The notes below the pieces were generated by a model, which was not told where the DNA came from, did not search any database, and saw only the letters and a program-made list of their open reading frames with translations. A program made the position numbers and the translations under genes. Of a stretch of 64,000 bases of DNA, positions 37,134-58,184 are shown piece after piece. Source of the stretch: Rahnella sikkimica (GTDB taxonomy: Bacteria; Pseudomonadota; Gammaproteobacteria; Enterobacterales; Enterobacteriaceae); contig NZ_CP019062.1 in the NCBI RefSeq assembly GCF_002951615.1, positions 1,178,001 through 1,242,000 of the forward strand, read 5' to 3'. Each line of letters begins with the position of its first letter. Position 1 is the first letter of the stretch.

Positions 37134-37149
37134 TTTCGTTAACTCCCTG

Positions 37150-37902
37150 TTAGTTGGCAATGTATTTCACGCGTCGTGGTTTAATCGTGTTGTCACAATG
37201 AAAATGATCATCCTTGGACACTCGATTAAAGTGAGCGTCTGATGCATTAATCCATTCATAATCATCTGACTTTTTTGGTGTGGGATATTTTTTATAATTT
37301 CCTTTTGCATTTGAAACTTGCGTGTAAATAGCATCATTAGTGATCGTTATTGTGTCATAAATAGAACCTATAACTTTAAGTTCGGAGTTTTTTGATGGGT
37401 CGGTTAAATTTCTATAAGCAATAAAATAGTTTAAGAATCCATATTTATAACTGACGTTACTCCCTGGGTAGGCAATGATATTATCACTAGCAGCATAAAT
37501 AAAGTTGCTATGGAAATCCATCACGCCATTGGGTTGGCTTATAGTGAATTCGTTTTGAGGGATTTTATCTGCTCCCTCATTACCAGCCAAAACCTTAATT
37601 TTTTTATTAGTGTCGTTGTAATAAACAAATCCGCCGAATGAGCAATTTAAATAATTTTCAAGAGTAAAAAAACGATGATTGTCAATGCGATAGACAACCT
37701 GCGGTTCTACGTCGATTTCAACATCCCGGATAGCTCTGCCACCGGAACCGCCGGGGAAGCCCGCGCCAAAACTGCCGCCTACGGTCGGGATCATTGAAAC
37801 CACAACGTTCCATAATACCCATATCACAAAGATAACCACGGCAATGATCATGAGAATTTTCAACCCAAGTTCAGTGCCTTCGCTTTTCTTTTCATCACTC
37901 AT
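37150..37902 (-). CDS. Membrane-anchored immunity-like protein, copy 1 (Tli3-like)
   Basis: A 250-residue protein starting MSDEKKSEGTELG. A short charged cytoplasmic start, one transmembrane helix (about 13-37, LKILMIIAVVIFVIWVLWNVVVSMI), a Gly-rich linker (GGSFGAGFPGGSGGRA) and a periplasmic domain are seen. Four related genes lie in this locus; they share the first 80 residues and the last 20 (DDHFHCDN.IKPRRVKYI) almost exactly but differ in the middle. That pattern, plus position directly before tle3, points to periplasmic immunity proteins that block the lipase. ATG 37902 has GGAA 7 bases before; the longer frame uses TTG. Confidence 0.75.
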   Translation of the reverse strand: MSDEKKSEGTELGLKILMIIAVVIFVIWVLWNVVVSMIPTVGGSFGAGFPGGSGGRAIRDVEIDVEPQVVYRIDNHRFFTLENYLNCSFGGFVYYNDTNKKIKVLAGNEGADKIPQNEFTISQPNGVMDFHSNFIYAASDNIIAYPGSNVSYKYGFLNYFIAYRNLTDPSKNSELKVIGSIYDTITITNDAIYTQVSNAKGNYKKYPTPKKSDDYEWINASDAHFNRVSKDDHFHCDNTIKPRRVKYIAN

Positions 37903-37952
37903 AATCAAGTTCCATTTTACTGATGGCTATTATCATTTTTGTTAACTCCCTG

Positions 37953-38705
37953 TCAGTTTGAAATGTATTTCACACGTCGTGGTTTAATCGTGTTGTCACA
38001 ATGAAATTGGTCATCCTTGGACACTCGGTTAAAGTGAACGTCTGATGCATTAATCCATTCATAATTATCTGTTTTTTTTGGGATGGGGTATTTTTTATAA
38101 TTTACTGTTGCGTTAGAAACCTGCACGTAAATAGCATCGTCTGTAACAATATTAGTGCGGGAACTCGATGGTGAAACCTCAAATTTTGCATTTCTTGAGG
38201 GTTCGCTGATGTTTTTATAAGCTATATAATGAGTAGAGTTTCCGTATTTATAGCTCACATCTCTAGTCGGGTAAGCAATCACATTATCACTGGCGGCATA
38301 AACGAACTTACCGTTTAGTGCAAGCACATCATTCTCCTGCATCGTTGTAACTTCGTTTTGAGGCCTTTTATCTGCTCCCTCATTACCAGCCAAAACCTTA
38401 ATTTTTTTGTTCGTGTCGTTGTAATAAACAAATCCGCCGTTGTTACAGTCCAGGTATTGCTCTAGCGTGAAAAAACGATGATCGTCAATGCGATAGACAA
38501 CCTGCGGTTCTACGTCGATTTCAACATCCCGGATAGCTCTGCCACCGGAACCGCCGGGGAAACCCGCGCCAAAACTGCCGCCTACGGTCGGGATCATTGA
38601 AACCACAACGTTCCATAATACCCATATCACAAAGATAACCACGGCAATGATCATGAGAATTTTCAACCCAAGTTCAGTGCCTTCGCTTTTCTTTTCATCA
38701 CTCAT
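37953..38705 (-). CDS. Membrane-anchored immunity-like protein, copy 2
   Basis: A 250-residue paralogue of the gene that follows it, with the same anchor and linker. The periplasmic middle differs (for example FEVSPSSSRTNIVTDDAIYVQVSN instead of LKVIGSIYDTITITNDAIY). It lies 66 bases after vgrG and 50 bases before copy 1, in one operon. Extra immunity genes next to one effector often protect against variant toxins of neighbours, which is an inference here. Its leader sequence (38706-38770) is repeated before copy 4 at 45566-45630. Confidence 0.72.
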   Translation of the reverse strand: MSDEKKSEGTELGLKILMIIAVVIFVIWVLWNVVVSMIPTVGGSFGAGFPGGSGGRAIRDVEIDVEPQVVYRIDDHRFFTLEQYLDCNNGGFVYYNDTNKKIKVLAGNEGADKRPQNEVTTMQENDVLALNGKFVYAASDNVIAYPTRDVSYKYGNSTHYIAYKNISEPSRNAKFEVSPSSSRTNIVTDDAIYVQVSNATVNYKKYPIPKKTDNYEWINASDVHFNRVSKDDQFHCDNTIKPRRVKYISN

Positions 38706-38771
38706 AATCAAGTTCCATTTTGAATTTCCGCATCCCGATTCAAACTGCCGGTGTTAATACTTACGCATCAA

Positions 38772-41276
38772 TCATTTTCCCTTAGGGAAAACAGACAAAA
38801 TCATATCGTCAACTATTTCAGATTGGGTTAATTCCGTTTCACCAGTCGCTGACGTGATGCCTTCGATGATTTTTCCATCCGGCATAGTGATCCGATAAGG
38901 GATATTACTGATGGGATGTCCCGTCAGGGCGTGGCTGACAACAAACTTTTCATCGAAGCTTTCGGGCTCAAACGATTTCATCGTACTTTGCATGCTGGCC
39001 GCGCCTTGTTTGACGATACCTGCATTTTTCACCCGCAGTTTCCCCGGACCGCCAATTTCAACGTTACCGCCTTTCAGTTTGATGTAGGCTCCGCCGCAGA
39101 TCAGAACCAGCTCGTCCTGCGCCGTCACCGTCATTTTTTTGCCGCTGGCAATATGCGTATCGTCCGTTGACCAGGTGGTGAATTTCCCGCCCTGCGCCTG
39201 AACGTCGATATCGCCTTTGGCAGCAAACATTTTGGTGCCCTGACGGCTGTAGAGGCTGATTTGCTCACCGGCCGCGACGGTGAATTTCTTCGCCGCGCCG
39301 ATATCCACCTGTTTACCGGCGGTCAGCGTCAGGCTGTCTTCGGCGTACAGCTGCATACTGTCCCCGCTGACAATACCGACGCCTTTTGGGGCGCTTAAAA
39401 GCAAAACGGCCTGCTGAAGTTTGTCGAGTTTCTGCTGAAGTAACGTTTGTTGCCGGTCGATGTCGGCGGCTAACGCCTGCGCCTGTTGCGCACTGGCCGA
39501 CAGGCTTTGCATTTCCACCCTCGCGCTGGAAAGCAGGGCTTTGGCCTGTTGCATATCCAGTTGCTGACCTCCGGCGGAGGCCTGCACATCGGCAGAAATA
39601 AACACGCCTTTACCGCCACGAACGGACACCCAGTCGTCGGTGCGCAGCTCGGCGCCGTGGCCGCGGTCTTTGCGCTTATCATCGACCAGCGCACCGAGGT
39701 TCAGCTGGCTTTTGCCGCTGGCAGGCGTTGAAAGCTTGATGTGTTCTTTGCCGCGCGTGTCGTCGAGACGCAGTTTGTTATTGGCCGGCGTGCGTATAAC
39801 GTTCCGCTTATAATTCGGTAACGCCACATGATCCGGGTGCCGTGAATCATGCAGCGCGTAAGCAATGTAAGGCCGGTCAACGTCGCCGTTCTCAAACGCA
39901 ATCGCCACGCCGGTGGAATCCAGCAGTGGCATATGGAAGCCGTAACTGTCACCGGAATACGGTTTCGCCAGACGCAGCCAGCAGCTTTCAAAACCCTTCT
40001 GCCATGCGGTGCGGTCAAAACCAAACTGCGCGCGGTATAAACCGTCGGCGTTGATATGGGCGTAAGGTTCATCCGGGTGCGCGCTGGAGATGCGGGCGGG
40101 CAGCGTGCCGGTGACGACGGGCCACGGCAGCAAAACAGGGCGATAAGGATGCTGGGTATTGCGCGGAACGGCGGTGAAGGTGACGAAATACGCCGTGTCG
40201 CGGGCGACGTTTTGAGATTCTGTGGAGACAATCAGCAGGCCGTCGGGCGCTTCCGGCCAGTCCTTGCCCGGCGTGGTGATAACCATGCCGGGGCGCAGCG
40301 TCATGCAGTTGGATTTGCCCTCGAACGTGATTTGTTCTGTGAGGTAGCGCTCCTGACGGCGTTTGGCGTACCACATGCCCTGACCGGGCTCGCTGCTGTA
40401 TTCCTTGCCCGGCTCGGGATAATACTCGCCCCAGCGGTAATCTTCGGCGACCAGCGCCGGATAGTCCGGGTTAGTGGCGGTTGTGGCCGTCATATCGCTT
40501 TGCGCAGCCGGGTAATAATCGTCGCTAACCGTCACTGACTTCGGAATGGATTTCCGGCTGACCGACATCTCCCACACCGATTCCAGCCCGCCGTCGAACA
40601 TGCCTGCCGGATTGCGGAACGTAATAGCTACAGGTTCCGGCCAGGCGTAGGAATGGTCGGCCAGCACCATGACGTCGCAGTTGTTTTCCTCATCGTATTC
40701 AAAGAAGTACGAGATACCACTGTCGGCCAGACGGCGCGCGATGTGCGCATATTCGCTTTCACCAAACTGCATCATGAATTTTTTCAGCGGGTACTGGTCG
40801 TTCAACGCAAACCGGAAATCCAGCCGGTCCATGTTGTACCGCAGGAAGGTGTTTTCGGTCATGCTGATGACGCTGTCGTTCTGGTAAATCGCGTTATTGC
40901 TGCCCTGATTTAAGCGGGTAAGACGGTGTTCCAGCGTCGCGACGTAGCGGGTCTCGTCGGCAGACGTGCTGCACTGGCGAAACTGAGTAATGACACCGGG
41001 AATAATGCGCGGTTTAACCGCTTCCCACGGTTTGCCGTCGGGATACATCAGGAACAGGGCGGAATAGTTGATGATGTGTTGGGCGGGAATGTCTTTCACC
41101 GCGCTGGTGAATTCGATTTCATAGCGCAGGATGTCACTGATGGCCTCGGTGCCGCTGAACTTGAGTACCGAGATATCCACACCGGGCTGTTGGGATTCGA
41201 GGCGCGTTAATCTGAGCTGATAATGGTTGTGGATCGGTAATTTACTGCCGGCAAGAATGTATTCCTGAATGCTCAT
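38772..41276 (-). CDS. vgrG: VgrG spike protein (TssI) with C-terminal adaptor-like domain
   Basis: The trimeric T6SS spike that carries PAAR and effector. The 834-residue protein has the gp27-like N-terminus (about 20-370), the gp5-like OB fold and beta-helix region (about 390-560), a DUF2345-type segment interrupted by a coiled coil (about 575-640, rich in Q, L and A), then beta-prism repeats. A C-terminal extension (about 775-834), HALTGHPISNIPYRITMPDGKIIEG onward, resembles the transthyretin-like domain by which some VgrG proteins bind Tle lipases. AAGGGA stands 9 bases ahead of the ATG. It is the first gene of the operon running to tssG. Confidence 0.92.
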   Translation of the reverse strand: MSIQEYILAGSKLPIHNHYQLRLTRLESQQPGVDISVLKFSGTEAISDILRYEIEFTSAVKDIPAQHIINYSALFLMYPDGKPWEAVKPRIIPGVITQFRQCSTSADETRYVATLEHRLTRLNQGSNNAIYQNDSVISMTENTFLRYNMDRLDFRFALNDQYPLKKFMMQFGESEYAHIARRLADSGISYFFEYDEENNCDVMVLADHSYAWPEPVAITFRNPAGMFDGGLESVWEMSVSRKSIPKSVTVSDDYYPAAQSDMTATTATNPDYPALVAEDYRWGEYYPEPGKEYSSEPGQGMWYAKRRQERYLTEQITFEGKSNCMTLRPGMVITTPGKDWPEAPDGLLIVSTESQNVARDTAYFVTFTAVPRNTQHPYRPVLLPWPVVTGTLPARISSAHPDEPYAHINADGLYRAQFGFDRTAWQKGFESCWLRLAKPYSGDSYGFHMPLLDSTGVAIAFENGDVDRPYIAYALHDSRHPDHVALPNYKRNVIRTPANNKLRLDDTRGKEHIKLSTPASGKSQLNLGALVDDKRKDRGHGAELRTDDWVSVRGGKGVFISADVQASAGGQQLDMQQAKALLSSARVEMQSLSASAQQAQALAADIDRQQTLLQQKLDKLQQAVLLLSAPKGVGIVSGDSMQLYAEDSLTLTAGKQVDIGAAKKFTVAAGEQISLYSRQGTKMFAAKGDIDVQAQGGKFTTWSTDDTHIASGKKMTVTAQDELVLICGGAYIKLKGGNVEIGGPGKLRVKNAGIVKQGAASMQSTMKSFEPESFDEKFVVSHALTGHPISNIPYRITMPDGKIIEGITSATGETELTQSEIVDDMILSVFPKGK

Positions 41277-41952: not shown

Positions 41953-43994
41953 TTAATAACCATATTCCCTGGCTTTAGTTCGGATGCGTTCTTCGAATTC
42001 TGCTTTTTTTACTTCTGACAGGGTTTCTGTAGAAATAATGGATGGAATCGGCGGGACGGATAACTCACCGTTATTAAAATAGTTGTCATAGCCTTTGGTC
42101 CAGTCTGCTCTGTCCCGCAGTTCTGCCATAAATGCCTTGTCCCAGGTCGCATCACAGAAGCCGATCGGTAAATCGAAGGCGGCTACTCGCGACATAAATT
42201 CTGGGCTACTGGGCACGTGCTATGGTCGGTGGGCTGTGATATATACGCGCCTACGCGGGTGCGCCGTTCCTCGTCGGTTTCACGTCTCATCTCTGGTTCT
42301 ACTTTTGGGTAATCTCTCCCTGTAGGAAGATACTTACCGGTTGGTATCTGAATTTTTGGGTACAGCGACACATAGTTCTCGAAAGTATCGTCATTGGGGG
42401 CACCGTTTGGCTTATTTTGTCCCCATCCATCCCCTTTTTTAGAAATAGGATTTTTATCCCAATGGTCACCATTTCCTGGGCGCTTCATATCAAAGTCCAC
42501 CATCGTTGATGCCAGAATAGGTTCTTTCACCTCTTCAGCATTGATATCGATAGTTTGATAATTAGGCGTTGAGTAAGTCAGCAAATCTCCGCCATCATCC
42601 CAAAATGGTTTTCCATCTGGTAAAAGCCAGAAAGGGGTTTTGGCATTTAGCGCTCCACCACATGGGGTGGCTCGTGCCATCATTCGTTGGAATAGATGCT
42701 TTTTATGTGCTCCGAGTAATTTATGAGGTTTTTGATCAAATCCTGAATTGGGTAAACCTTGCCATCCAAGACTCAACAATGGCGATGACCCCATCACACG
42801 ATCGTGTGGGTTGCAGTAGATATAAAATCGTCCATGATTATCTCTCTCAGATATCCATCGGTCCGAAGTCGTGGTTTCTTTTCGCTGCTGTTTTTCAACT
42901 GCCGGATAGGTCCTTCCTGAAGAAACATAATCATACTCAGACATTTCAGTTGTAGTGACCTGAGGGATATTTGACTTATGTTTTATCAACGGAGTCCAGG
43001 GGCTGTTTTCTTCAGATTTCCCAACAATTAAATCTTTATATTTATCAGGCGTCAGAAAAGTTGCACGCTCAGCAATTTTATTGATGATGGCTTCCAGTGT
43101 TTGTTCGCGTGCTTTGTCAGATATAATTTCATTATCCGGCAGAGAAAAATAATCGGTCGACTTTGTTTCCATCGCATAAGGTGAATTAAGAATGAATAAT
43201 GCATCCGGTGCTTTGTTTGCAAGAGCTGCTGCCCCGAGCGCGATCATGGTTCCCTGGCTATGAGAAATAACACTCACGGTATCTCTCGGGTATTTTACCC
43301 GAATTAAATCCAGTAAATCGGCCAGCCGTTTAGCGGTATGAGCGTAATATTTACGCGGGGGTGCACTGGACAGTAAACGGTCAAAATCAGGGGCAAAGTC
43401 TTGTACCGTAATGGGAATATGGCGTAATTTTGCATTAAATCCGGTTTCCCCCCACAGAGAAACCAGATTGTTGGTGCCGTTCTGGAACGGGCCTCCGCCC
43501 CAGAACCACGGTCCTTTGGCCTGCAGCGCTTCAGGCTTCAGTCCCTGTTTTTTTAACGTGCGGTAATTTTCGTTCTGACGGTTAACCAGCGGAATGAGGT
43601 ATCTGTCTTCTTCCCCCTTTGCTGAGCGGTATCCCCAGTAAAAGCGGACTATCGGAGAGTTTCCTGCATTGAGCAGTTTTCTGTCTTTCTTATAATTATC
43701 AAAATCAGAGGGAACGTCACAATTATATTGATTGGGTTTCAAAGTATAGGGGGTTCCTTCAAGCCCTAAACGGGTATTTAATCCCTTGCAAATATTCTCT
43801 TCAGCGATTGAAAACCATTCTCCGGTAGAGTTTACTCCGTGCACAAAAATAATAATGCCAGGATAATGTGGAGGAAGTTTGCATTCAGCCCTAACTTGTA
43901 CATTCTTGGGAGACAAACTGCTCCTGAACTGTGGTTTTCCGTTGTCATCAAAGGCGCAAGATGCTTCACGCGTAGGACCGATTATTTTTTCCAT
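41953..43994 (-). pseudogene. Second Tle3-like lipase gene, frameshifted
   Basis: The 5' frame (42183-43994, starting MEKIIGPTREA) keeps the HGVNSTGEWF loop and the SHSQGT nucleophile elbow and is almost identical to the intact copy over about residues 95-290. From about 290 to 590 it diverges. Near 42,213-42,222 one base is missing relative to copy B, so the frame shifts after ISQPTDHST and ends 10 residues later. The original last 85 residues continue in another frame (41953-42216) with strong conservation. The ribosome-binding site AGGGAG is intact. It may be a recent pseudogene, or give a lipase lacking its conserved tail. A sequencing error cannot be excluded. Confidence 0.8.
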
Positions 43995-44009
43995 TTATGT
44001 ATCTCCCTG

Positions 44010-44762
44010 TTAGTTAGAAATTAACTTTACATGTGTTGGTTTAATATTATTATCACAATGAAAATGATCATCTTTTGATCTTGAAGGGTAATTAACATCT
44101 GAAGGTGAAACTAATTCGTAATTATTTACATTGTTTTGCGGGATTTTAATTTTTTTGCTGTATTTAGAGACTGTACTATCCTGTATAAAAATGGCGTCAT
44201 TGGTTACGGTTGCAATTGCATCTATGAATATTCCGCCACTGCTTGTTATATTTGATGGGTTGTTGACGTCAGTGTATCTTATAAAAAATGTTGAGTTCCC
44301 ATACTTGTAATTAACATCTCTGGTTGGATATGCAATGATGTTGTCATTGGCAGCAAAAATAAATTTACCTTTAAACGCCAACGTATCATTTACCTGGCTC
44401 ATTGATACTTCATCTTGAGGCTCTTTGTCTCCGCCTTTTGGCCCTGCGAATATCTTTATTTTTTTATTAGTATCATTGTAATAAACCAATCCACCGCTGC
44501 TACAGTCTTTGTATTTTTCAAGAGTAAAAAAACGATGACCGTCAATGCGATAGACAACCTGCGGTTCTACGTCGATTTCAACATCCCGGATAGCTCTGCC
44601 ACCGGAACCGCCGGGGAAGCCCGCGCCAAAACTGCCGCCTACGGTCGGGATCATTGAAACCACAACGTTCCATAATACCCATATCACAAAGATAACCACG
44701 GCAATGATCATGACAATTTTCAACCCAAGTTCATTGCCTTCATTTTTCTTTTCGTCACTCAT
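44010..44762 (-). CDS. Membrane-anchored immunity-like protein, copy 3
   Basis: A 250-residue member of the same family, starting MSDEKKNEGNELG, with the identical transmembrane anchor and Gly-rich linker. It is the most divergent of the four in the periplasmic domain (VSMSQVNDTLAFKGKFIFA, IDAIATVTNDAIFIQDS) and ends IKPTHVKLISN rather than RRVKYI. It lies 15 bases upstream of the frameshifted tle3 copy, the cognate immunity position. Its survival intact beside a broken toxin gene suggests protection is still useful. Confidence 0.73.
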   Translation of the reverse strand: MSDEKKNEGNELGLKIVMIIAVVIFVIWVLWNVVVSMIPTVGGSFGAGFPGGSGGRAIRDVEIDVEPQVVYRIDGHRFFTLEKYKDCSSGGLVYYNDTNKKIKIFAGPKGGDKEPQDEVSMSQVNDTLAFKGKFIFAANDNIIAYPTRDVNYKYGNSTFFIRYTDVNNPSNITSSGGIFIDAIATVTNDAIFIQDSTVSKYSKKIKIPQNNVNNYELVSPSDVNYPSRSKDDHFHCDNNIKPTHVKLISN

Positions 44763-44812
44763 AATCAAGTTCCATTTTACTGTTGGATATTGTCATTTTC
44801 GTTAACTCCCTG

Positions 44813-45565
44813 TTAGTTAGAAATGTATTTCACGCGTCGTGGTTTAATCGTGTTGTCACAATGAAAATGGTCATCCTGAGATACGTTGTTGAATTTAACA
44901 TCTGAGGAACTAATCCACTCAGGATCATCCGATTTTTTAGGAATAGAGTATTTCTGATATTGTTCTTTTCGATTTGACACCTGAACATAAACAGCATCGT
45001 CTGTGACGGTATTCGTATTGTAAATTGACGGCGAAACCTCGAATCTCGCATTTTTTGAAGGGGTGCTAATATCGGCGTATACGATAGAGTAAGTTACAAG
45101 TCCATATTTTGAATTCTCATGTCGCTCAAGGTAAGCAATTACATCGTCCCTGGCTGCATAAATAAACTTGCCAGAGAAAGAAAGAGGGCCATTAGGTTGT
45201 AAAATTGAAATTTCATCTTGGGGGTCTTGATCTGACCCTTTTGGACCAGCAAGCACCTTAATTTTTTTCTTGGTGTCGTTGTAATAAACAAATCCTCCAA
45301 GGTTACAATCCATATATTTTTCAAGCGTAAAGAAACGGTGGCCATCAATGCGATAAATAACCTGCGGTTCTACGTCGATTTCAACATCCCGGATAGCTCT
45401 GCCACCGGAACCGCCGGGGAAACCCGCGCCAAAACTGCCGCCTACGGTCGGGATCATTGAAACCACAACGTTCCATAATACCCATATCAAGAAGATAACC
45501 ACGGCAATGATCATGACAATTTTCAACCCAAGTTCAGTGCCTTCGCTTTTCTTGTTATCACACAT
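44813..45565 (-). CDS. Membrane-anchored immunity-like protein, copy 4
   Basis: A 250-residue family member starting MCDNKKSEGTELG. Anchor, linker and C-terminal RRVKYISN match copies 1 and 2; the middle shares FEVSP and TVTDDAVYVQVSN with copy 2, its positional equivalent in the other module. It lies 50 bases before copy 3, the same spacing as copies 2 and 1, which supports block duplication followed by divergence. Confidence 0.73.
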   Translation of the reverse strand: MCDNKKSEGTELGLKIVMIIAVVIFLIWVLWNVVVSMIPTVGGSFGAGFPGGSGGRAIRDVEIDVEPQVIYRIDGHRFFTLEKYMDCNLGGFVYYNDTKKKIKVLAGPKGSDQDPQDEISILQPNGPLSFSGKFIYAARDDVIAYLERHENSKYGLVTYSIVYADISTPSKNARFEVSPSIYNTNTVTDDAVYVQVSNRKEQYQKYSIPKKSDDPEWISSSDVKFNNVSQDDHFHCDNTIKPRRVKYISN

Positions 45566-45613
45566 AATCAAGTTCCATTTTGAATTTCCGCATCCCGATT
45601 CAAACTGCCGGTG

Positions 45614-49843: not shown

Positions 49844-51325
49844 ATGTTTAGCCCGCGTGGTGTGAAGTTGTCGGCAGTCAAAAACGAAACGCTGGCAGGA
49901 TTTGTTGTGGCCGTGTCCATGATCCCGGAGGCCGTCGGGTTTTCGCTGGTCGCAGGGTTATCGCCGATTGTCGGCTTGCACACCGCTTTTATCATCGGGC
50001 TGGTGACCGCGCTGTTTGGCGGAAAACCGGGCATGGTGTCGGGCGCTGCGGGCTCGATCGTGGTGGTGCTGATGAGTCTGGCCGCGCAGCACGGGATGGG
50101 TTACGTGCTGTGGGCGACGATTTTTGCCGGTGTCATTCAGATTCTGATCGGCGTGTTCCGGCTCGGAAAGTTTATCCGGCTGGTGCCGCTGCCAGCGGTG
50201 CACGGTTTTGTGAACGGACTGGCGATTGTCATTATGCTGGCGCAGTTGCAAATGATTGCCGGGCAGGGGCCGCTGATGTACGGGCTGGTGCTGCTGGCGA
50301 TTCTGGTCGTCGTGCTGTTCCCGAAACTGACCAAAATCATCCCGTCGTCGCTGGCGGCGCTGATTGTGGTTTCCGCCGTGGCGATTGGTTTTAACCTGCA
50401 CACGCTGCGGGTCGGCGATCTGGCGGATATCTCCGGCGCATTACCGCATTTTAGCCTGCCGGTCGTGCCGTTCAGCCTGGAAATGCTGAAAGTGGTGCTG
50501 CCTTATGCAGTGGTGATTGCGCTGGTCGGGCTGATTGAATCGCTGCTGACCATGACGGTGCTCGATGAAATGGGCGGCCATAAAGGCAACGGGAACCGCG
50601 AAAGTATCGCGCAGGGTGCGGGCAATACAATCTGCGGTCTGTTCGGCTGTTTTGCCGGTTGCGCGATGATCGGGCAGTCGATCATTAACTTCACGTCGGG
50701 CGGGCGCGGGCGGATTTCCGGGACGGTCGGCGCGATTTTGCTGATTCTGTTTGTGGTGAGTTTGTCCGGTTATATCGGCCTGTTGCCGGTGGCGGCGCTG
50801 GCCGGGATTATGCTGGTGGTTTGCTATAATACGTTCGAGTGGAGTTCTTTGCGCCGTCTGCGGCGTATGCCGAAAGCCGACGCGCTGGTGATGCTGATTG
50901 TCACTGTGATCACGATTTTCACCGATCTGGCCGTGGCGGTGATCAGCGGGGTGATTATCTCGGCGCTGGTTTTTGCCTGGCAGCAGGCGCGTATCCGCAT
51001 CCGCGAGAAGAAAACCAAGGGTGAGCTGACGGTGTATAAGCTGGAAGGGCCGCTGTTCTTCGGCTCGGCGGCGTCGTTTTCTGAACTGTTTGAACCGGAG
51101 AACGATCCGCAAAACGTGGTGCTGGATTTCGCCGGGACGCGGGTGATGGATTCGAGCGGCGTTGAGGCAATTGATAAGCTGACCGCACGGTATCTGGATG
51201 CCGGTAAAACCATCCGTCTGCGTCATCTGAGCAATGACTGCATCAGTCTGCTCAAAAAAGCCGGGCCGTTTTGCAGCCACGAGCTGGATGACCCGCAATA
51301 TTATGTCGCGGAAGATAACCTCTGA
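49844..51325 (+). CDS. SulP-family anion transporter with STAS domain
   Basis: A 493-residue inner-membrane transporter for sulfate, bicarbonate, C4-dicarboxylate or a similar anion. About 11-14 hydrophobic segments cover residues 15-385; the SulP signature appears near GFVVAVSMIPEAVGFSLVAGLSPIVGLHTAF. The C-terminal STAS domain (about 395-485) contains VLDFAGTRVMDSSGVEAID. E. coli DauA, found in the same neighbourhood between ychH and prs, is longer (about 550 residues) and I judge this a different subfamily, so no symbol is given. A good terminator follows. Confidence 0.9.
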   Translation: MFSPRGVKLSAVKNETLAGFVVAVSMIPEAVGFSLVAGLSPIVGLHTAFIIGLVTALFGGKPGMVSGAAGSIVVVLMSLAAQHGMGYVLWATIFAGVIQILIGVFRLGKFIRLVPLPAVHGFVNGLAIVIMLAQLQMIAGQGPLMYGLVLLAILVVVLFPKLTKIIPSSLAALIVVSAVAIGFNLHTLRVGDLADISGALPHFSLPVVPFSLEMLKVVLPYAVVIALVGLIESLLTMTVLDEMGGHKGNGNRESIAQGAGNTICGLFGCFAGCAMIGQSIINFTSGGRGRISGTVGAILLILFVVSLSGYIGLLPVAALAGIMLVVCYNTFEWSSLRRLRRMPKADALVMLIVTVITIFTDLAVAVISGVIISALVFAWQQARIRIREKKTKGELTVYKLEGPLFFGSAASFSELFEPENDPQNVVLDFAGTRVMDSSGVEAIDKLTARYLDAGKTIRLRHLSNDCISLLKKAGPFCSHELDDPQYYVAEDNL

Positions 51326-51362: not shown

Positions 51363-51559
51363 GACCTAAAACTCCCGACCACCGGTGCGCATGACGGCCG
51401 TCGCCCCGGCAGATAAACGCTTACAATTAGTGGCAAAAAAGCGGCTAAATTCATATCGCCGAAAATTCTGTAATGTTATACGGTTACGCTCAGTTTTCTC
51501 GCACGCACTGGCGCATAGCCAGCGTGGCGGGTTATTTTTTCTCCTCTGCCGGAGCGGAC

Positions 51560-53518
51560 ATGAGCATAAACAAGGCATCCGGAACGGACGACGCCAGCAA
51601 ACAGTTGCGCTTTCAGTCAGCCGCCTCCCACACGCGCTGGCTGAACGGGCTGCTCCACGCCATTATGGTGATCAGCAGCGTGCTGTATCTGATATTACTG
51701 ATGCTCTATATGGTCTCCCCGGAGTCGGTCTGGCCGTGGGTGACCGGCAATATTATGGCGGCGATGTGGGTTTGTGCGGCCTCGCTGCAATGCGCCCGGC
51801 GCATTACCCGCTGGCGCGAGCAACAGTTTGCCTCCGGTCATGGTCTCGTCGGGCCGCAAATTCCCCCCGGATTTACTCAGCGTCTCGCCTCCCGGTCATG
51901 GATGCAGCCGGTATTGCGTTATGTCGATGCCCACGTGTTCTTTCAGGCATTTCCGGCCATGGCTGCATTAGGGCTCATCGCGCTGCTGTGGCAGTTGCCG
52001 TTACCGGTAAATCTCGCCAGTGAGGCCGGGTATTTCGCCGGTTCTGTCTTTATCCTTTGCGCCTTTGCCGTGCTGGTGCTTGAGCGTCACTGGACGCTAA
52101 AAAATCCGCTGGAATGGCCGGAAGCGGCAAAACTGGCACCGCTGCTGCGTATGATTATCGCCGTCTTTTTACTGAGTGCGCTGGCGCTGATGTTTGCCCA
52201 GGGTACGACGGTCTGGCCTGCGCATTTGCTGGTGCTCACCGGATGGCTACCGGCGCTGGTGGCGCTGGAGCTTTTCCTGCGGGCGCTGATGGCGGTGTTT
52301 TCACCTCCGCGTGAGGACAAAGAGCCGGAGTTCATTGCAGGCAGTTTGCTGGCGGCACAACTTTGCTGGCCACCGCGCCCGTTACAGTTTGTGCAGAAAG
52401 AACTGCATCAGCATTTTGGTATCGATCTCCGCCAGATCTGGGCATTCCGTTTTATGCGCCGCGCGGTGTTGCCGCTGGGCGCGTTTTTGCTGCTGACCGG
52501 CTGGATGCTGACGGGTATCAGCGAGGTGCCGCTGACGCAGCGTGGAATTTATGAATCCTTCGGCAAACCGGTGGCCGTCCGGCAGCCCGGTTTACACGCC
52601 GGGCTGCCGTGGCCATTTGGTCGCACGCTGATGGTCGATAACGGGGAAGTGCATGAACTCACCACCGGTTCTGAAGAGCCGGTGACTGCCACGTCCGTCG
52701 CAGTGGCAGACACCGCCGAAGGCCCCGCGCCGGAGAGCGCAAACCGGTTATGGGATTCCGGCCACAGCAGCGACAAATCACAAATCATCGCCAGCGCGGC
52801 GAATGACCGGCAAAGTTTTCAAATCATGAATATGGACGTCCGCTTCGTGTACCGCATCGCCATGAACGATGATGCGGCGATGGCGAGCCTTTATCACACC
52901 GAAAATATGCCGGTGCTGATCCGCAGTATTGCCAATCAGGTGCTGGTGCATGATTTTTCCTCGCGCACGCTCGACAGCCTGCTGGGCAGCGATCAGACCC
53001 GTCTGGCCGGTGATATCGGGCAGAAAGTGCAGGCGCAGCTTGATCATCTCAACAGCGGTGTGGAACTGCTGGCGACGGTGATTGAGTCGATTCATCCGCC
53101 TGCGGGCGCGGCCGACGCGTATCACGGCGTGCAGGCGGCACAAATTCTGGCGCAAAGCGCGATTGCCGGTGAGAAAGGCCAGGCGGCGCAACAGCTGAAT
53201 GCCGCCCAGCAATTTGCCCGTCTGGCACTGGATACGGCCACCGCACAAAATCATGAAAATCTGGATCAGGCGCAGGTCATGGCGCTGTCCTTTGATGCCG
53301 AAAATCAGGCGTATCAGGCCGGTGGTCAGTCATTCCTGACCGAGCGTTATTTCCGTCAACTGACGCTGGCGATGCAGCAGCATCCGAAGGTGTTGATTGT
53401 TGATCACCGCATGGGTGGCGGGACGCCGCCGGTGCTGGATCTGAGAAATTTTACCCTGCCATTTACGCCCGGAGCGGATAAAGCGGCGCATTCTGTCAAA
53501 GCGGAGACGACCCGGTGA
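51560..53518 (+). CDS. Polytopic SPFH protein, HflK-like (first gene of the SPFH/ATPase operon)
   Basis: A 652-residue membrane protein. The N-terminal 340 residues hold about seven hydrophobic helices (for example IMVISSVLYLILLMLYMVS, LRMIIAVFLLSALALMFA, LPLGAFLLLTGWMLTG). The C-terminal half is an SPFH/Band-7 domain typical of HflK: GIYESFGKPVAVRQPGLHAGLPWPFG, then FQIMNMDVRFVYRI and the coiled-coil tail. Ordinary HflK has one helix and about 420 residues, so the polytopic extension is special. ATG 51560 is chosen over 51473 because GGAG lies 5 bases ahead and the family start fits. Its stop overlaps the next GTG. Confidence 0.8.
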   Translation: MSINKASGTDDASKQLRFQSAASHTRWLNGLLHAIMVISSVLYLILLMLYMVSPESVWPWVTGNIMAAMWVCAASLQCARRITRWREQQFASGHGLVGPQIPPGFTQRLASRSWMQPVLRYVDAHVFFQAFPAMAALGLIALLWQLPLPVNLASEAGYFAGSVFILCAFAVLVLERHWTLKNPLEWPEAAKLAPLLRMIIAVFLLSALALMFAQGTTVWPAHLLVLTGWLPALVALELFLRALMAVFSPPREDKEPEFIAGSLLAAQLCWPPRPLQFVQKELHQHFGIDLRQIWAFRFMRRAVLPLGAFLLLTGWMLTGISEVPLTQRGIYESFGKPVAVRQPGLHAGLPWPFGRTLMVDNGEVHELTTGSEEPVTATSVAVADTAEGPAPESANRLWDSGHSSDKSQIIASAANDRQSFQIMNMDVRFVYRIAMNDDAAMASLYHTENMPVLIRSIANQVLVHDFSSRTLDSLLGSDQTRLAGDIGQKVQAQLDHLNSGVELLATVIESIHPPAGAADAYHGVQAAQILAQSAIAGEKGQAAQQLNAAQQFARLALDTATAQNHENLDQAQVMALSFDAENQAYQAGGQSFLTERYFRQLTLAMQQHPKVLIVDHRMGGGTPPVLDLRNFTLPFTPGADKAAHSVKAETTR

Positions 53519-54552
53519 GTGATTCCCAACAACCTGAAGGCCACGACCACGACGCACATGACGGACATCATCACGGTGCCGGGCATCATCACCACCACCA
53601 TCATTCCGGCCCGGCGGCACCCAAGCTCTGGCGGCGTGTCACGATTGCCACCGTGCTGGTGGCGCTGATTGCCGCCACTGCCTGTCTGGTGCAGGTGCGT
53701 TCAGGCGAAGCAATGGTGATAACACGCTTTGGTAATCCGGTGCGCGTGCTGTTGCAACCGGGGCTGGCGTGGCATCTGCCGGTTCCGCTGGAAACGGCGA
53801 TTCCGGTGGATTTGCGGATCCGCACCACATCCAGCGGTTTGCAGGATGTCGGCACGCGCGACGGCCTGCGGATTATCGTGCAGGCGTATACCGTCTGGCA
53901 GGTGAAAAACGATCCTCAGCACGTGCAGCGTTTTATCCGTGCGGTACAAAATCAGCCGGATATGGCGGCCGCGCAGATAAGGACGTTTATCGGCTCGGCG
54001 CTGGAAACCACCACCAGCGGTTTTGCGCTGGCTGACCTGGTAAATACCGACGCCAGCAAAATCCGGCTTTCCGGCTTTGAACAGCATTTGCATGACCAGA
54101 TCGCACGCCAGCTGCTCGACAGCTACGGCATCGAACTGGTACAGGTCGGCGTTGAACGGCTCACGCTGCCGTCGGTGACGTTAGATGCCACCGTGGATCG
54201 GATGCGGGCGGAGCGGGAAACCATCGCCACCGAGCGTTCTGCCGAAGGTAAGCGTCAGGCGGCTGAAATCCGGTCTTCCGCTGAACGAGACGCCCGCGTG
54301 ATTAAAGCGGATGCGTCAGTTAACGCGGCCAATATTGAAGCGCAGGGACAGGTGCAGAGTGCGGCCATTTATGCCAAAGCCCGCGCAGGGGATCCGCAAC
54401 TGTACGATCTGCTGCGTTCGCTCGATACGCTCAGCAACGTGATCACACCGGGTACGCAACTGGTGCTGGGCACGGATGCGGCACCGTTCCGGCAACTGGT
54501 CGAAGGCCCGCCGGCATTACCCGCCGCTTCAACTAACGGACCGCATCCATGA
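53515..54552 (+). CDS. SPFH protein, HflC-like, with His-rich N-terminus
   Basis: A 345-residue protein beginning with GTG that overlaps the previous stop (GTGA). Residues 9-32 are a His/Asp-rich tail (GHDHDAHDGHHHGAGHHHHH), which should bind divalent metal. One transmembrane helix follows (about 41-61), then an SPFH domain (GEAMVITRFGNPVRVLLQPGLAWHLPVP) and a coiled coil with RAERETIATERSAEGKRQAAEI, the HflC pattern. The tail is predicted cytoplasmic if topology follows HflC, whose N-terminus is short and inside. Next to a metal P-type ATPase, it may hand over or sense the metal; this is inference. Confidence 0.82.
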   Translation: MSDSQQPEGHDHDAHDGHHHGAGHHHHHHHSGPAAPKLWRRVTIATVLVALIAATACLVQVRSGEAMVITRFGNPVRVLLQPGLAWHLPVPLETAIPVDLRIRTTSSGLQDVGTRDGLRIIVQAYTVWQVKNDPQHVQRFIRAVQNQPDMAAAQIRTFIGSALETTTSGFALADLVNTDASKIRLSGFEQHLHDQIARQLLDSYGIELVQVGVERLTLPSVTLDATVDRMRAERETIATERSAEGKRQAAEIRSSAERDARVIKADASVNAANIEAQGQVQSAAIYAKARAGDPQLYDLLRSLDTLSNVITPGTQLVLGTDAAPFRQLVEGPPALPAASTNGPHP

Positions 54553-55592
54553 ATCCGTTATCCCGTTTTCAGGGAAATGCGTGGTTTCAGGCGGGGCGCA
54601 TGGCGTATCTGGCGCTGTTCGCCATGACGCTGATTGCCGCCGCGAGCTGGCTGTTTTCCAACGTCCGGCAGATAGAGCCGGATAAGCGCGCGGTGGTCAT
54701 GCGTTTTGGTGCGGTTTCGCGCACGGCGGGTGCCGGGCTGCTGCTGGCATGGCCGGAACCGCTGGAACAGGTGGAAATCCTGCCCGCCGCCGATCGGGTG
54801 ATCGAGCATCATGTGACCGCCTTGCTGAGAACCGACATTGTGCCCGCGTGGAATAATACCGGTGGCGAGAAAAGTGATGCCGTCGCCGGGGCGGGATATC
54901 TGCTGACCGGAGATTCCGGCGTGGTTCAGCTGGATGTGCAGGTGTACTACGTGATCACCGATCCGGTGGCGTTTGTGCTGCAAGGGGAACACGTGTTACT
55001 GGCGCTCGACCGTTTAACTGAACATGCGGCAGTGGCGATTTGTGCCTCACGGGATCTGGACACCATTCTGGTCGCCCGGCCGGAAATGGTGGGTAACGGC
55101 AGCAATATCGCCGAACGCCGTGAACGGCTGCGCGGCGATTTGCGTCAGGGCATTAATCAGCAACTCGCGGGGCTGAGGGCGGCAGGGAGCAGCACCGGTA
55201 TCGAAGTCCGCCGCGTTGACGTGCAGTCGTCGCTGCCGCCGTCGGCGGTGGATGCGTTCAATGCGGTGCTGACGGCCAGTCAGCAGGCGGAGCAAAACAT
55301 CGCCAGCGCCCGTAATGAGGCGGCGCGCGTTCATCAGGACGCCGTTCAGTCGGCCGACCGCGCTTTACAGGTTTCTCATGCCAGAGCCAGCGAGCAAATT
55401 GCGCGCGCGTCCACCGATACCGCGACGATAGTGCAACTGGCGGACGACCGCTCGCCCGAACTGCTGTGGCGTTTATGGCGTGAACGGATACCGGCGATCC
55501 TCGCCCATGCAGGCAGCGTGACGGCTGTTGATCCCCATGACGACGCGCATCTGATCCTGCCGGGGCCAGACCGTCCGACATCTCAACCCTGA
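54549..55592 (+). CDS. SPFH protein, HflK-like (third of operon)
   Basis: A 347-residue SPFH protein, ATG overlapping the upstream stop as ATGA. It has one N-terminal helix (about 18-40), the Band-7 entry EPDKRAVVMRFGAVSRTAGAGLLLAWPEPLEQVEI, the HflK-type LLTGDSGVVQLDVQVYYVITDP and an Ala/Gln-rich coiled coil (about 235-300). No protease motif is present. Together with the two preceding proteins it could build a cage-like membrane assembly such as the FtsH-HflKC complex, but the separate housekeeping hflKC are expected elsewhere on the chromosome. Confidence 0.82.
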   Translation: MNPLSRFQGNAWFQAGRMAYLALFAMTLIAAASWLFSNVRQIEPDKRAVVMRFGAVSRTAGAGLLLAWPEPLEQVEILPAADRVIEHHVTALLRTDIVPAWNNTGGEKSDAVAGAGYLLTGDSGVVQLDVQVYYVITDPVAFVLQGEHVLLALDRLTEHAAVAICASRDLDTILVARPEMVGNGSNIAERRERLRGDLRQGINQQLAGLRAAGSSTGIEVRRVDVQSSLPPSAVDAFNAVLTASQQAEQNIASARNEAARVHQDAVQSADRALQVSHARASEQIARASTDTATIVQLADDRSPELLWRLWRERIPAILAHAGSVTAVDPHDDAHLILPGPDRPTSQP

Positions 55593-55604
55593 GGTAATGC
55601 TTCC

Positions 55605-57518
55605 GTGACGTCTTTTTCCTCTGAAGAACCGCACACTTCGCCCGCGAAAAGTGTGCTGCTAACGCGCAGTGAACAGCGAAATATGGCGGTGCAGCTGCTG
55701 CTGGCGATGGCCGCGTTTGGTCTGCTGCTGTGCGGCTGGATCTGGCAGTGGCTGTTTCCGCAGCAAAGCGACGTCGGGCAAATTCTGTTTGGCGTGGCGT
55801 CACTGCTGGTCGCGGTGCCGGTGCTGCGTTCGGCGATTTACAGCTTGCGCAGCCCCAGCCTGCATGGCGTGACCGATCAGCTGATTGCCATCGCAATGCT
55901 GGGTGCGTGGGCGACGGGCGATCTGATGACCGCCGCATTGCTGCCGGGCATTATGATTTTTGGTCATATTCTGGAAGAGCGGAGCGTGATCGGTTCGCAG
56001 GAAGCGATCGACGCACTGAGCCATCTGACACGCAGCCGCGCACGGCGGATTTTACCCGACGGTGACATTGAAGAAATCGATAACCACCAGTTGCGAACCG
56101 GCGACCGGGTTGAAGTCCGCGCCGGTGACCGGTTGCCCGCCGATGGCCGTGTCATATCTGGCAGCGCCAGTCTGGATACTGCGCCGATCACCGGGGAATC
56201 CGTGCCACAGGAAGCCCGCGCGGGGGATGACGTTTTCGGGGGGGCCATTAATCTTGACGGATTACTTTGCGTTGAAGTCACACGCACCGGCGCGGATGCC
56301 ACGCTGGGTAAAGTGATTGCGCTGATGCAAAAAGCCGAACATGCCAAACCGCCGATCACCCGTCTGCTCGAACGCTACGCCGGGCAATATCTGGTGCTTA
56401 TTCTGCTGATTGCCGCCGCGACCTGGTTTATCACCCGCGATGCCCACGCCATGCTGGCGGTGCTGGTGGCGGCGTGTCCGTGTGCGCTGGTGCTTTCCGC
56501 GCCCGCCACGGCCATTGCCGGGATCGCAGTGGCAGCGCGTCACGGGATCCTGATCCGCAGCTCCGCATTTCTGGAGGAACTGGCCGATCTGAACGCCATC
56601 GTGGTCGATAAAACCGGTACGCTGACGCACGGTGAACTGCATTTGCAGCGCACGGTGCTGGCCGCCGGGGCGTCGTCTGACGCAGTGATCCGGCTGGCGG
56701 CCAGTCTGGGCGCGGCGAGCAGCCATCCGGTCAGCCGTGCGCTGGCAAAATTACTGCCGCGTGAACAATATTTACCACTGGACGACGTGTCAGAACAGCA
56801 GGGCATGGGCGTGCGTGCGCGGACTGCACAGGGCGATGCGTTGCTGGGGCGTCCGGCATTTTTCGGCCAGAACAGTATCCCGGTGGATGCCGAACCTGAA
56901 CATGACGGGCCGCTGGTCGGACTGTCGCTAAACGGGCGTTTTCTCGGCTGGCTGCTTCTGGCTGATTCGCTCAGGCCGGAGGCGCAAATGGCGCTGGCGG
57001 AACTGCGTCAGCTTGGGCTGCAACGACAACTTCTGCTGACCGGCGACCGCGACAGCGTGGCGCAACGTATTGCCGGAGAAGTGGGCATCGGTGATGTCGT
57101 CGCACAGGCGTTACCGGAAGATAAACTGCATCAGGTATCAGCCGAAATCGCGCAAGGGTTCCGGCCAATGGTGGTCGGGGACGGCATCAATGATTCTCTG
57201 GCGTTAAAAGCGGGCGTGGTGGGCATTGCGATGGGGGCGGGCGGCAGCGATATTGCGCTCGCTTCCGCCGACGTCGTGCTGATCGGCAGCGATTTGCGCC
57301 GTCTGGGAACCTGCGTTCGTCTGAGCCGCGCCTGCCGTAAAACGCTGAAAATTAATGTTTTCATCGGGCTGGGCTGGACGCTGGTGGTGATGGCGGCCGC
57401 CGCAATGGGATTACTCGGCGTGGGCGGTGTGCTGATTGCCGCACTGTTACATAACCTGAGCACCTTGCTGGTGCTGGGCAATGCCGGGCGATTATTGCGG
57501 TTTGACGAGCCACTTTAA
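55605..57518 (+). CDS. Metal-transporting P1B-type ATPase
   Basis: A 637-residue heavy-metal pump starting at GTG 55605, 12 bases after the third SPFH gene, with GAGG in front. It shows the dephosphorylation loop TGESVPQEA, the transmembrane CPC metal site (Cys291-Cys293, ACPCALVLSAP), the phosphorylation motif DKTGTLTHGE (Asp335) and the hinge GDGINDSLALKAG. There is no N-terminal HMA domain. The last helix reads HNLSTLLVLGNAGRLL (His616), unlike the DxGATVLVTxNALRLL of ZntA-type pumps and closer to HEGGT-type ones, so the metal cannot be stated. It is the last gene of the SPFH operon. Confidence 0.9.
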   Translation: MTSFSSEEPHTSPAKSVLLTRSEQRNMAVQLLLAMAAFGLLLCGWIWQWLFPQQSDVGQILFGVASLLVAVPVLRSAIYSLRSPSLHGVTDQLIAIAMLGAWATGDLMTAALLPGIMIFGHILEERSVIGSQEAIDALSHLTRSRARRILPDGDIEEIDNHQLRTGDRVEVRAGDRLPADGRVISGSASLDTAPITGESVPQEARAGDDVFGGAINLDGLLCVEVTRTGADATLGKVIALMQKAEHAKPPITRLLERYAGQYLVLILLIAAATWFITRDAHAMLAVLVAACPCALVLSAPATAIAGIAVAARHGILIRSSAFLEELADLNAIVVDKTGTLTHGELHLQRTVLAAGASSDAVIRLAASLGAASSHPVSRALAKLLPREQYLPLDDVSEQQGMGVRARTAQGDALLGRPAFFGQNSIPVDAEPEHDGPLVGLSLNGRFLGWLLLADSLRPEAQMALAELRQLGLQRQLLLTGDRDSVAQRIAGEVGIGDVVAQALPEDKLHQVSAEIAQGFRPMVVGDGINDSLALKAGVVGIAMGAGGSDIALASADVVLIGSDLRRLGTCVRLSRACRKTLKINVFIGLGWTLVVMAAAAMGLLGVGGVLIAALLHNLSTLLVLGNAGRLLRFDEPL

Positions 57519-57593: not shown

Positions 57594-58184
57594 TTAAAGC
57601 TCAGCTTTAAACGTGTGCAGGCGGCGCATGGTCTTTTCCAGGCCGTCTTTCATCAGTAATTCCGTGCAGCGCAGTGACTCGTCAATCGCATCATCAATCA
57701 GCTTTTGTTCACTGGCGGGCGGCTTGCCCAGCACAAATCCCACGACTTTGCTTTTATCGCCCGGATGGCCGATGCCAATGCGCAGACGGTAGAAATTCGG
57801 GTTACCGCCGAATTTGCTCTGAATATCTTTCAGGCCATTGTGACCGCCGTTGCCGCCGCCCAGTTTAATTTTCGCCATGCCCGGCGGGATATCCAGTTCA
57901 TCGTGCGCGACCAGAATTTCGTCCGGTTCAATACGGTAGAACTGCGCCATCGCCAGAACGGCTTTGCCACTGAGATTCATGAAGGTGGTCGGCACCAGCA
58001 GGCGGACGTCCTGACCTGCCAGAGATAAACGCGCGGTGTAGCCAAAAAACTTACTTTCTTCTTTTAACTGCTGGTTGTGCTGGCGTGCCAGAAGGTCAAC
58101 ATACCAGGCACCCGCATTGTGGCGGGTTTGGGCATATTCGGCACCTGGATTGGCCAGCCCGACGATCAATTTAATGCTGCTCAC
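57594..58184 (-). CDS. pth: Peptidyl-tRNA hydrolase
   Basis: Recycles peptidyl-tRNA released by stalled ribosomes, cleaving the ester between peptide and tRNA; essential. The 196-residue length equals the enterobacterial norm (194-196). Family motifs are present: [23 protein letters not shown] with catalytic His22, [18 protein letters not shown] and [12 protein letters not shown]. It is normally co-transcribed with ychF, which here is about 8 kb away, so pth ends its own transcript at the terminator beyond its stop. Confidence 0.97.

Follow-up and report, generated by a model that had tools for sequence, protein, structure and literature searches.

The 64,000-nt stretch of Rahnella sikkimica DNA analysed here (the window) contains a four-gene unit in which three genes for SPFH proteins are followed by a gene for a CPC-type P1B ATPase, with successive genes joined by a 4-nt overlap or a 12-nt gap (Table 1). 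All four genes lie at the place and on the strand given in the original prediction, which described them as an operon. The Band_7 family of Pfam matched ORF1, ORF2 and ORF3 with 58.5, 107.3 and 73.6 bits, respectively, all above the cut-off of 23.6, and ORF4 matched E1-E2_ATPase and Hydrolase. The operon is flanked by a SulP/STAS transporter gene (Pfam) and by a gene that we take by eye to be pth, so that, as had also been claimed, no protease gene adjoins it; the names dauA-type, ychF, znu, COG0523, acr and nag are likewise our presumed assignments by eye. The G+C content of the operon is 60.8%, against 54.3% for the whole window, and no Rfam family reached its gathering score between positions 49500 and 58500. 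An in-frame ATG at 51473 is an alternative upstream start for ORF1 and coincides with the Zur-like box described below; among the matches listed, most Rahnella homologues of ORF1 are 652 residues long.

Table 1. Features of the operon and its surroundings, in positions of the window.
Feature	Position	Strand	Remarks
SulP/STAS transporter	49844-51325		Upstream neighbour
Promoter block upstream of ORF1	51412-51488	+	Almost unchanged between the window and 9 further aligned Rahnella loci
Zur-like box TGTTATACGGTTACG	51474-51488	+	Weight matrix score 9.3; conserved, imperfect
ORF1, polytopic HflK-like SPFH protein	51560-53518	+	652 aa; Band_7
ORF2, HflC-like SPFH protein with His-rich N-terminal tail	53515-54552	+	GTG start; Band_7
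His-rich tail of ORF2	53542-53604	+	Residues 10-30; 13 His within the first 45 residues
ORF3, second HflK-like SPFH protein	54549-55592	+	One TM segment; Band_7
ORF4, HmtA-type P1B ATPase	55605-57518	+	GTG start; E1-E2_ATPase, Hydrolase
CPC metal-site motif of ORF4	56475-56483	+	Residues 291-293; invariant in 92 aligned ATPases
His616-Asn617 of ORF4	57450-57455	+	Last TM helix; invariant in 92/92; opposite Asp714 of ZntA and HEGxT of CoaT (alignment to 4umv, 7qbz)
Presumed pth	57594-58184	-	Downstream neighbour

The kinship of the three SPFH proteins with HflK and HflC is evident from Pfam, from a phylogenetic tree and from matches to PDB chains. In the tree, whose QmcA, HflK and HflC rows we take by eye to be such, ORF1, ORF2 and ORF3 each form a separate clade with 100% bootstrap support, ORF2 beside HflC and ORF1 and ORF3 beside HflK, and none of them falls within the FtsH-linked HflK or HflC clades. 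The NCBIfam equivalogs lean the same way, with ORF1 (54.7 bits) and ORF3 (89.5 bits) below the HflK cut-off of 159.4 and ORF2 (102.2 bits) below the HflC cut-off of 134.4. ORF2 matched HflC chain 7vhq_G with E=1.3e-20 and ORF3 matched HflK in the PDB with E=7.9e-07. Hydropathy analysis gave 6 TM segments for ORF1 in the window and 5 to 7 across 91 loci, and the protein probably has seven TM helices followed by a periplasmic SPFH domain. With the canonical HflKC topology, the SPFH domains of all three proteins are predicted to lie in the periplasm and the His-rich stretch of ORF2 on the cytoplasmic side. This stretch is N-terminal, which gives a position to the tail of the His-tailed, HflC-like protein of the original prediction; with start codons set mechanically, the tail counts 12-15 His across the window and nine further Rahnella loci, a median of 15 in Pseudomonas and 1 in a Klebsiella plasmid locus. 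The structure model of ORF1 had a mean pLDDT of 53.4 and was confident only in the N-terminal helical bundle, and a Foldseek search of the PDB with it found nothing at E<=0.001, the best E being 0.095; no conclusion was drawn from that search, its weak rows for YiiP included. Arg191 of HflK has been described as contacting FtsH (PMC12048511); in the aligned PDB chain of HflK we counted an Arg at 193, and the contact was thus not mapped onto the trio.

ORF4 scores over the NCBIfam cut-offs of TIGR01525 and TIGR01512 and far under the ZntA and CopA equivalogs, and Pfam finds no HMA domain in it. It is identical at 465 of 625 positions (74%) to the P. aeruginosa homologue P0253, which is probably HmtA itself, judging from gene order and the published order of the locus. 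The CPC motif, D335 (in DKTGT), W591, T592, H616 and N617 are invariant in the 92 aligned sequences, those of P. aeruginosa included. In the alignment to 4umv the positions of E202, K693 and D714 of ZntA, whose roles are discussed in PMC8880997, are occupied by Thr109, Thr592 and His616, again invariant in 92, so that the residue set of P1B-2 pumps (an M2 Glu and an M5 Lys-M6 Asp pair) is absent; the SPC and HEGxT motifs of the P1B-4 pump CoaT are replaced by CPC and HNLST. ORF4 thus lacks the residues that ZntA and CoaT use in outward release, including the ZntA counter-ion. An invariant Asp106, three residues before Thr109, could replace the absent Glu. The pump of several relatives also bears a His tail.

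The complete gene set was present in the same order in 89 of the 91 loci examined, 74 of which are from Pseudomonas and which are not independent of each other; the two incomplete loci (L033 and L044) are on contigs that end early. Since 89 of 91 loci keep the four genes in order, the arrangement is not a matter of chance. The full set occurs in gammaproteobacteria and on plasmids of Rhizobium, Burkholderia and Paraburkholderia, its genes mostly overlapping by 4 nt. On a Paraburkholderia plasmid, the island that holds the operon also carries zigA and genes for a Fur-family regulator, for a zinc ABC transporter and for a TonB receptor. The original prediction held that the SPFH set is dedicated to the pump and named independent occurrence of the genes in most genomes as evidence to the contrary. 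For ORF1 and the pump no such independence was found: both were present in the same 12 of 397 genomes in one sample and the same 9 of 293 in another, 2.0-2.8 kb apart, with no discordant genome, and the set therefore looks dedicated. This exact co-occurrence of the pump with a polytopic HflK-like protein is new here.

In five of the nine other aligned Rahnella loci (L019, L020, L023, L025 and L027) the promoter block upstream of ORF1 is retained although DauA is about 5 kb farther away on the upstream side; the intervening genes were read in L019. Starting from the Zur consensus, a search of the window that allowed up to 3 mismatches found no full palindrome, and the imperfect box came from comparison of upstream regions. 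By hand count it departs from the full palindrome at 5 of its 16 fixed bases, and by the Zur weight matrix it ranks second of all positions in the window (the third also scoring 9.3), with p=0.022 against shuffles. Boxes at p<=0.05 were present in 82 of 91 upstream regions and in 18 of 273 control windows, the loci being mostly from Pseudomonas and not independent, and a related box is found in most Pseudomonas loci. One locus (L135) is marginal at p 0.058, and upstream of five plasmid loci of Rhizobium, Burkholderia, Paraburkholderia and Klebsiella the box was not found (p 0.17-0.93). With this conserved but imperfect box, the operon is a candidate for Zur control in Rahnella.

In the P. aeruginosa group the gene order is ORF1-ORF2-ORF3-small ORF-pump, matching PA2439-PA2438-PA2437-PA2436-PA2435. 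Expression of the P. aeruginosa locus is reported to rise 5.6- to 14.4-fold in a znuA mutant (PMC4542158), and under zinc depletion HmtA and the PA2437-PA2439 proteins were higher, the change being called significant for PA2438 and PA2439 (PMC11761036). The PA2439 promoter was shifted by Zur in EMSA according to Ducret et al. (PMC8531726), who did not see zinc repression of hmtA mRNA; a review citing that work (PMC10393844) states that Zur bound every uptake promoter but that of hmtA, a statement at odds with what the paper itself says of the EMSA on PA2439. Reviews describe HmtA as a zinc/copper importer, its overexpression leading to greater zinc and copper sensitivity and content (PMC10393844), and the review just cited calls the direction of import unconfirmed. 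Three SPFH proteins of one P. aeruginosa operon have been described as PaFlo5-6-7 (PA14_33070/33080/33110), and deletion of the trio had no more than slight effects in the media named (PMC13086221). The locus is thus partly studied, and the view that there is no characterised example finds no support. No paper in the library searched contained 'hmtA' and 'SPFH' together; three contained both 'hmtA' and 'HflK', two of them being zinc papers that, in the passages concerned, mention the adjoining genes only.

Because zinc shortage induces the matching genes of P. aeruginosa, a zinc-uptake machine is the most likely reading, ahead of a metal exporter. We favour, with moderate confidence, the explanation that the operon is Rahnella's counterpart of the Pseudomonas hmtA locus, which is under Zur control, and forms a zinc-acquisition unit in which the three SPFH proteins serve as a scaffold or cage for the pump. 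Under zinc shortage Zur would release the box ahead of ORF1, and all four proteins would be produced together. ORF4 would then move Zn(II), and perhaps copper, from periplasm to cytoplasm across the inner membrane. ORF1 to ORF3, as a dedicated HflK/HflC/HflK-type set, would sit in the membrane with their SPFH domains facing the periplasm and may form an HflKC-like dome or membrane patch around the pump, as HflK/HflC do around FtsH, while the His-rich tail of ORF2, and that of the pump in several relatives, might take or buffer zinc on the cytoplasmic side. More tentatively, a three-part dome around a P-type ATPase could provide a periplasmic chamber that gathers zinc for import, and this could be the reason why an HmtA-type pump runs inward.

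Among the alternatives, the trio might be a variant of HflK/HflC for zinc starvation whose role is to tune FtsH, itself a zinc protease, the pump being merely co-regulated. Descent from the HflK/HflC lineage and a link to zinc proteases indicated in a proteomics preprint (PMC11761036) fit this account, which we nevertheless hold to be unlikely: the trio scores below the equivalog cut-offs, ORF1 always came with the pump in the samples of 397 and 293 genomes, and all 8 operon-bearing genomes checked retain a further HflK/HflC-type pair, judged from sequence in six of them and from position alone in two. Two of the genomes (G635 and G651) had been considered as cases without an ordinary pair and were rejected, since Band_7 matched six times in each, with a further adjacent pair among the six. 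Slightly less probable is an outward pump that delivers zinc into a periplasmic SPFH chamber, where it would load periplasmic or envelope enzymes in starvation; P1B ATPases usually act in efflux, the direction of HmtA has been called unconfirmed as noted, and the SPFH domains are predicted to be periplasmic, but the importer phenotype in the literature, the absent release residues and the predicted cytoplasmic His tails argue against it. Improbable again, and below both of these, is that four genes of the zinc regulon share an operon without physical partnership, given their mostly overlapping arrangement from gammaproteobacteria to Rhizobium, Burkholderia and Paraburkholderia plasmids and an ORF1 and pump that never part in the two samples. 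The caged metal exporter of the original prediction, read as one for heavy-metal detoxification, agrees with the P1B fold, the CPC motif and automatic names such as 'Cd2+/Zn2+-exporting ATPase', but this version is very improbable because zinc starvation induces the orthologous locus, Zur shifts the promoter of that locus and the literature presents HmtA as an importer; in addition, the ZntA counter-ion pair is missing and one relative carries the operon in a zinc-uptake island.

The zinc-acquisition reading bears on two questions, namely what roles SPFH cages have beyond FtsH and by what means a P1B pump of the HmtA type could bring metal in, which is disputed. A three-member SPFH set that stays with such a pump joins them and makes both testable within one operon; if the dome reading is true, an SPFH cage would have a primary ion pump as its resident.

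Compared with known systems, the operon resembles the P. aeruginosa hmtA locus (PA2439-PA2435) in the order of its genes and in its pump, and differs in that a PA2436-like small gene lies between ORF3 and the pump there, where the window has the 12-nt gap; the zinc-regulated promoter is published for that locus, whereas in Rahnella zinc regulation is predicted. By arrangement we judge PaFlo5-6-7 to be the same trio as ORF1-ORF3, although it was described without a pump or zinc uptake, in a paper whose main text is without the terms 'hmtA', 'P-type' and 'ATPase' (PMC13086221). ORF4 shares the P1B fold with ZntA and CoaT, the CPC motif with ZntA and a last-helix His with CoaT, but it has no HMA domain, and it differs from ZntA in the Thr, Thr and His already described and from CoaT in the replacement of the Ser of SPC by Cys and the Glu of HEG by Asn. 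The trio shares with the HflK/HflC of E. coli the SPFH domain, a composition of HflC-side (one) and HflK-side (two) subunits, and alignable SPFH and C-terminal parts. It has three proteins rather than two, however, ORF1 has about six extra TM helices, no hfq, hflX or FtsH gene is adjacent to the operon in the window, and a pump takes the place of the protease.

All four operon genes lie on one strand, flanked by a SulP/STAS transporter gene and by a gene that we take, by eye, to be pth; their coordinates and domains are listed in the table together with the other features discussed. ORF1 has its closest named relatives in Rahnella. In NCBIfam comparisons ORF1 and ORF3 are nearest HflK and ORF2 is nearest HflC, with none of the three reaching the equivalog cut-offs. 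A Pfam search of ORF4, the HmtA-type pump with a CPC motif, returned no HMA domain.

Features of the window and of compared loci
Feature	Location	Coordinates	Strand	Content
ORF1	window	51560-53518	+	Band_7/SPFH domain
ORF2	window	53515-54552	+	Band_7/SPFH domain
ORF3	window	54549-55592	+	Band_7/SPFH domain
ORF4 (pump)	window	55605-57518	+	P1B ATPase domains
Upstream block	window	51412-51488		77 bases
Zur-like box	window	51474-51488		TGTTATACGGTTACG
5007-aa ORF	window	129-15152		Big_13 Ig-like repeats
Effector module 1	window	35091-38711		Tle3 gene, two tandem Tli3 genes
VgrG gene	window	38772-41276		
Effector module 2	window	42183-45571		Tle3 gene, two tandem Tli3 genes
Inserted genes	L019	3430-8142		nag-type, presumed by eye
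Possible RiPP cluster	L094	16010-17950		MbnB/TglH/ChrH family
Possible RiPP cluster	L137	10629-12619		MbnB/TglH/ChrH family
Small protein	L133	10142-10594		between ORF3 and pump
Small protein	L177	5981-6469		between ORF3 and pump

Scanning genome contigs with an ORF1 alignment gave 375 stretches encoding a relative, and the best 80 of these (9 Rahnella and 71 Pseudomonas) were combined with the window, five further loci and five plasmid loci to give 91 loci. The complete operon is present in the same gene order in 89 of the 91 and is incomplete in L033 and L044, where the contigs end. Counted within the 89 are L065, in which the pump ORF is split in two pieces, and L136, in which ORF2 is interrupted. 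Gene spacing is -4/-4/-4 in 31 of the 89 loci and 11/-4/-4 in 30; nine have -4/-4/12, the pattern found here, and eight 12/-4/-4.

Because the locus scan was seeded with ORF1, ORF1 (E≤1e-30) and the pump (E≤1e-110) were also searched separately. Each was found in 12 of 397 Pseudomonadota genomes, the identical 12, and both in the identical 9 of 293 genomes from the order of Pseudomonas, 7 of which were already in the Pseudomonadota sample; no genome with ORF1 or the pump alone was seen in either set. In all 14 genomes the two genes are on the same strand, 2.0–2.8 kb apart. The pump threshold sets the HmtA-type pump apart from ordinary P1B pumps, since in a family-level sample it scored 1356 and 895 bits in two genomes and the other matches 277 or less. 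The original prediction picked out a real and unusual SPFH–pump unit.

The operon has a G+C content of 60.8% versus 54.3% for the window, and ORF1 and the pump are missing from G006, one of 14 Rahnella genomes, which has just three Band_7 matches; together these points suggest that the operon was gained by transfer. The genome of the window encodes three Band_7 proteins besides ORF1–3, which by eye we take to be a QmcA-like protein and the ordinary HflK and HflC, encoded side by side. Complete operons are also carried on plasmids of Rhizobium, Burkholderia, Klebsiella aerogenes and Paraburkholderia. The plasmids of K. aerogenes (pYD-K10_1, L170) and Burkholderia ubonensis (L169) are typed as conjugative and carry the operon close to Tn3 or IS elements. 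On the Paraburkholderia plasmid the operon starts 3.6 kb past a group of zinc ABC transporter genes; a copper chaperone gene sits in the interval, and zigA and the genes for a Fur-family regulator and a TonB receptor lie farther out; comparable zinc genes are absent at the other three annotated plasmid loci.

The block upstream of ORF1 is almost identical in ten Rahnella loci including the window, and is kept even though the SulP gene is about 5 kb further upstream in five of the ten. In L019 the intervening genes are presumably of nag-type sugar metabolism, and four other Rahnella loci have a like shift. The Zur-like box within this block starts 84–89 nt ahead of the start codon in the three Rahnella loci listed. 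Near-perfect Zur palindromes occur in the genome of the window upstream of genes that we take, by eye, to be znuC-B-A-like and a COG0523-like GTPase gene, with a third 3.2 kb from the znu site. A Zur matrix built from six of the distinct sites in 14 Rahnella genomes matched 82 of 91 upstream regions at p≤0.05 and 78 at p≤0.01. Of 273 control windows, 18 matched at p≤0.05; related Pseudomonas loci do not count as independent. The box ranks second among all positions of the window and is an imperfect site. The best Pseudomonas match is GTTATATCGTAAC in 52 of 70 loci (hand count); L135 is marginal (p 0.058), and the plasmid loci L168–L172 have no such box upstream (p 0.17–0.93).

A tree built from 59 SPFH sequences puts ORF1, ORF2 and ORF3 each in a single clade (100/100, 100/100 and 100/99), with ORF2 sister to HflC (98/91) and ORF1 plus ORF3 sister to HflK (95/92), both on long stems for which the program warns that the joins may be false. 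From these separate clades, the trio looks like an old HflC-HflK-HflK kit of its own rather than a late duplicate of the pair linked to FtsH. Hydropathy calls six segments in ORF1 of the window (7 in 51 of the 91 loci, 6 in 35 and 5 in 5), and its structure model has six confident helical stretches followed by a less confident pre-SPFH helix; loop charges suggest a periplasmic SPFH domain, in which His 365, 402, 512 and 522 are invariant in 19 representatives. ORF2 has 13 His within its first 45 residues (12–15 in Rahnella loci, Pseudomonas median 15, minimum 1 on the Klebsiella plasmid), and this tail would be cytoplasmic if the topology of HflC applies, because it precedes the single TM helix.

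A small secreted-looking protein with no Pfam family match, PA2436-like by position, is encoded between ORF3 and the pump in one of 89 loci searched (L133) and also in L177. In 13 of 87 loci the 4 kb downstream of the pump hold a relative of the MbnB/TglH/ChrH RiPP enzymes (Pfam on L094 only), and in 13 of 87 a DUF2063-like gene. Ahead of both genes, L094 and L137 encode a small secreted-looking peptide that contains Cys, a possible metal-binding RiPP cluster adjoining the pump. Elsewhere in the window, the two Tle3 phospholipase effector modules with Tli3 immunity genes flank the VgrG gene; this is a type VI secretion region, which also has an IcmF gene. The 5007-aa ORF has many repeats in its first third, and genes for an ABC transporter and HlyD come after it; it probably encodes a very large adhesin secreted by a type I system.

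ORF4 shares 74% identity with its P. aeruginosa homologue P0253. The order ORF1-ORF2-ORF3-small ORF-pump is seen in a genome whose pump matches P0265, labelled P. aeruginosa group, at 100% identity; P. aeruginosa PA2439–PA2435, the hmtA locus, has this order too, and orthology of the Rahnella operon to this locus is well supported. In a P. aeruginosa znuA mutant those PA2434–PA2439 genes that are listed are up 5.6- to 14.4-fold, PA2436 being unlisted, and a weak Zur site is predicted (PMC4542158). The PA2439 promoter was shifted by Zur plus zinc, and added zinc did not repress hmtA mRNA (PMC8531726); a later review conflicts, with Zur binding every uptake promoter but hmtA (PMC10393844). Under zinc depletion HmtA and PA2437–2439 proteins rose, termed significant for PA2438 and PA2439 (PMC11761036). 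The predicted zinc/Zur regulation of the operon is fairly supported. Deletion of the PaFlo5-6-7 trio, taken by arrangement as the counterparts of ORF1–3, lowered biofilm by about 20% and weakened virulence in larvae, other effects being slight; the main text of this 2026 study mentions neither a P-type ATPase nor hmtA (PMC13086221).

Aligned with ZntA (4umv), ORF4 also has CPC, and ZntA E202, K693 and D714 correspond to Thr109, Thr592 and His616; HEGST of CoaT (7qbz) becomes HNLST. All 92 sequences share these residues, apart from the Leu and Ser of HNLST, which vary in a few, and Asp106 near Thr109 is also invariant. E202 of ZntA and E120 of CoaT are described as release ligands, and K693–D714 as a built-in counter-ion pair (PMC8880997). 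Their loss fits a pump working unlike known exporters, and does not by itself prove import. HmtA is described as a zinc and copper importer, said to need confirmation (PMC10393844; PMC8456098). Since the operon belongs to the hmtA zinc-starvation locus, the export originally proposed is unlikely; the favoured reading is instead that the unit acquires zinc through a pump working inward, which a dedicated HflKC-like scaffold would hold, as HflK/HflC do FtsH (PMC12048511). What is new is the union of trio and pump: in the text covered, neither the zinc literature nor the SPFH literature found describes the four proteins as a single machine.
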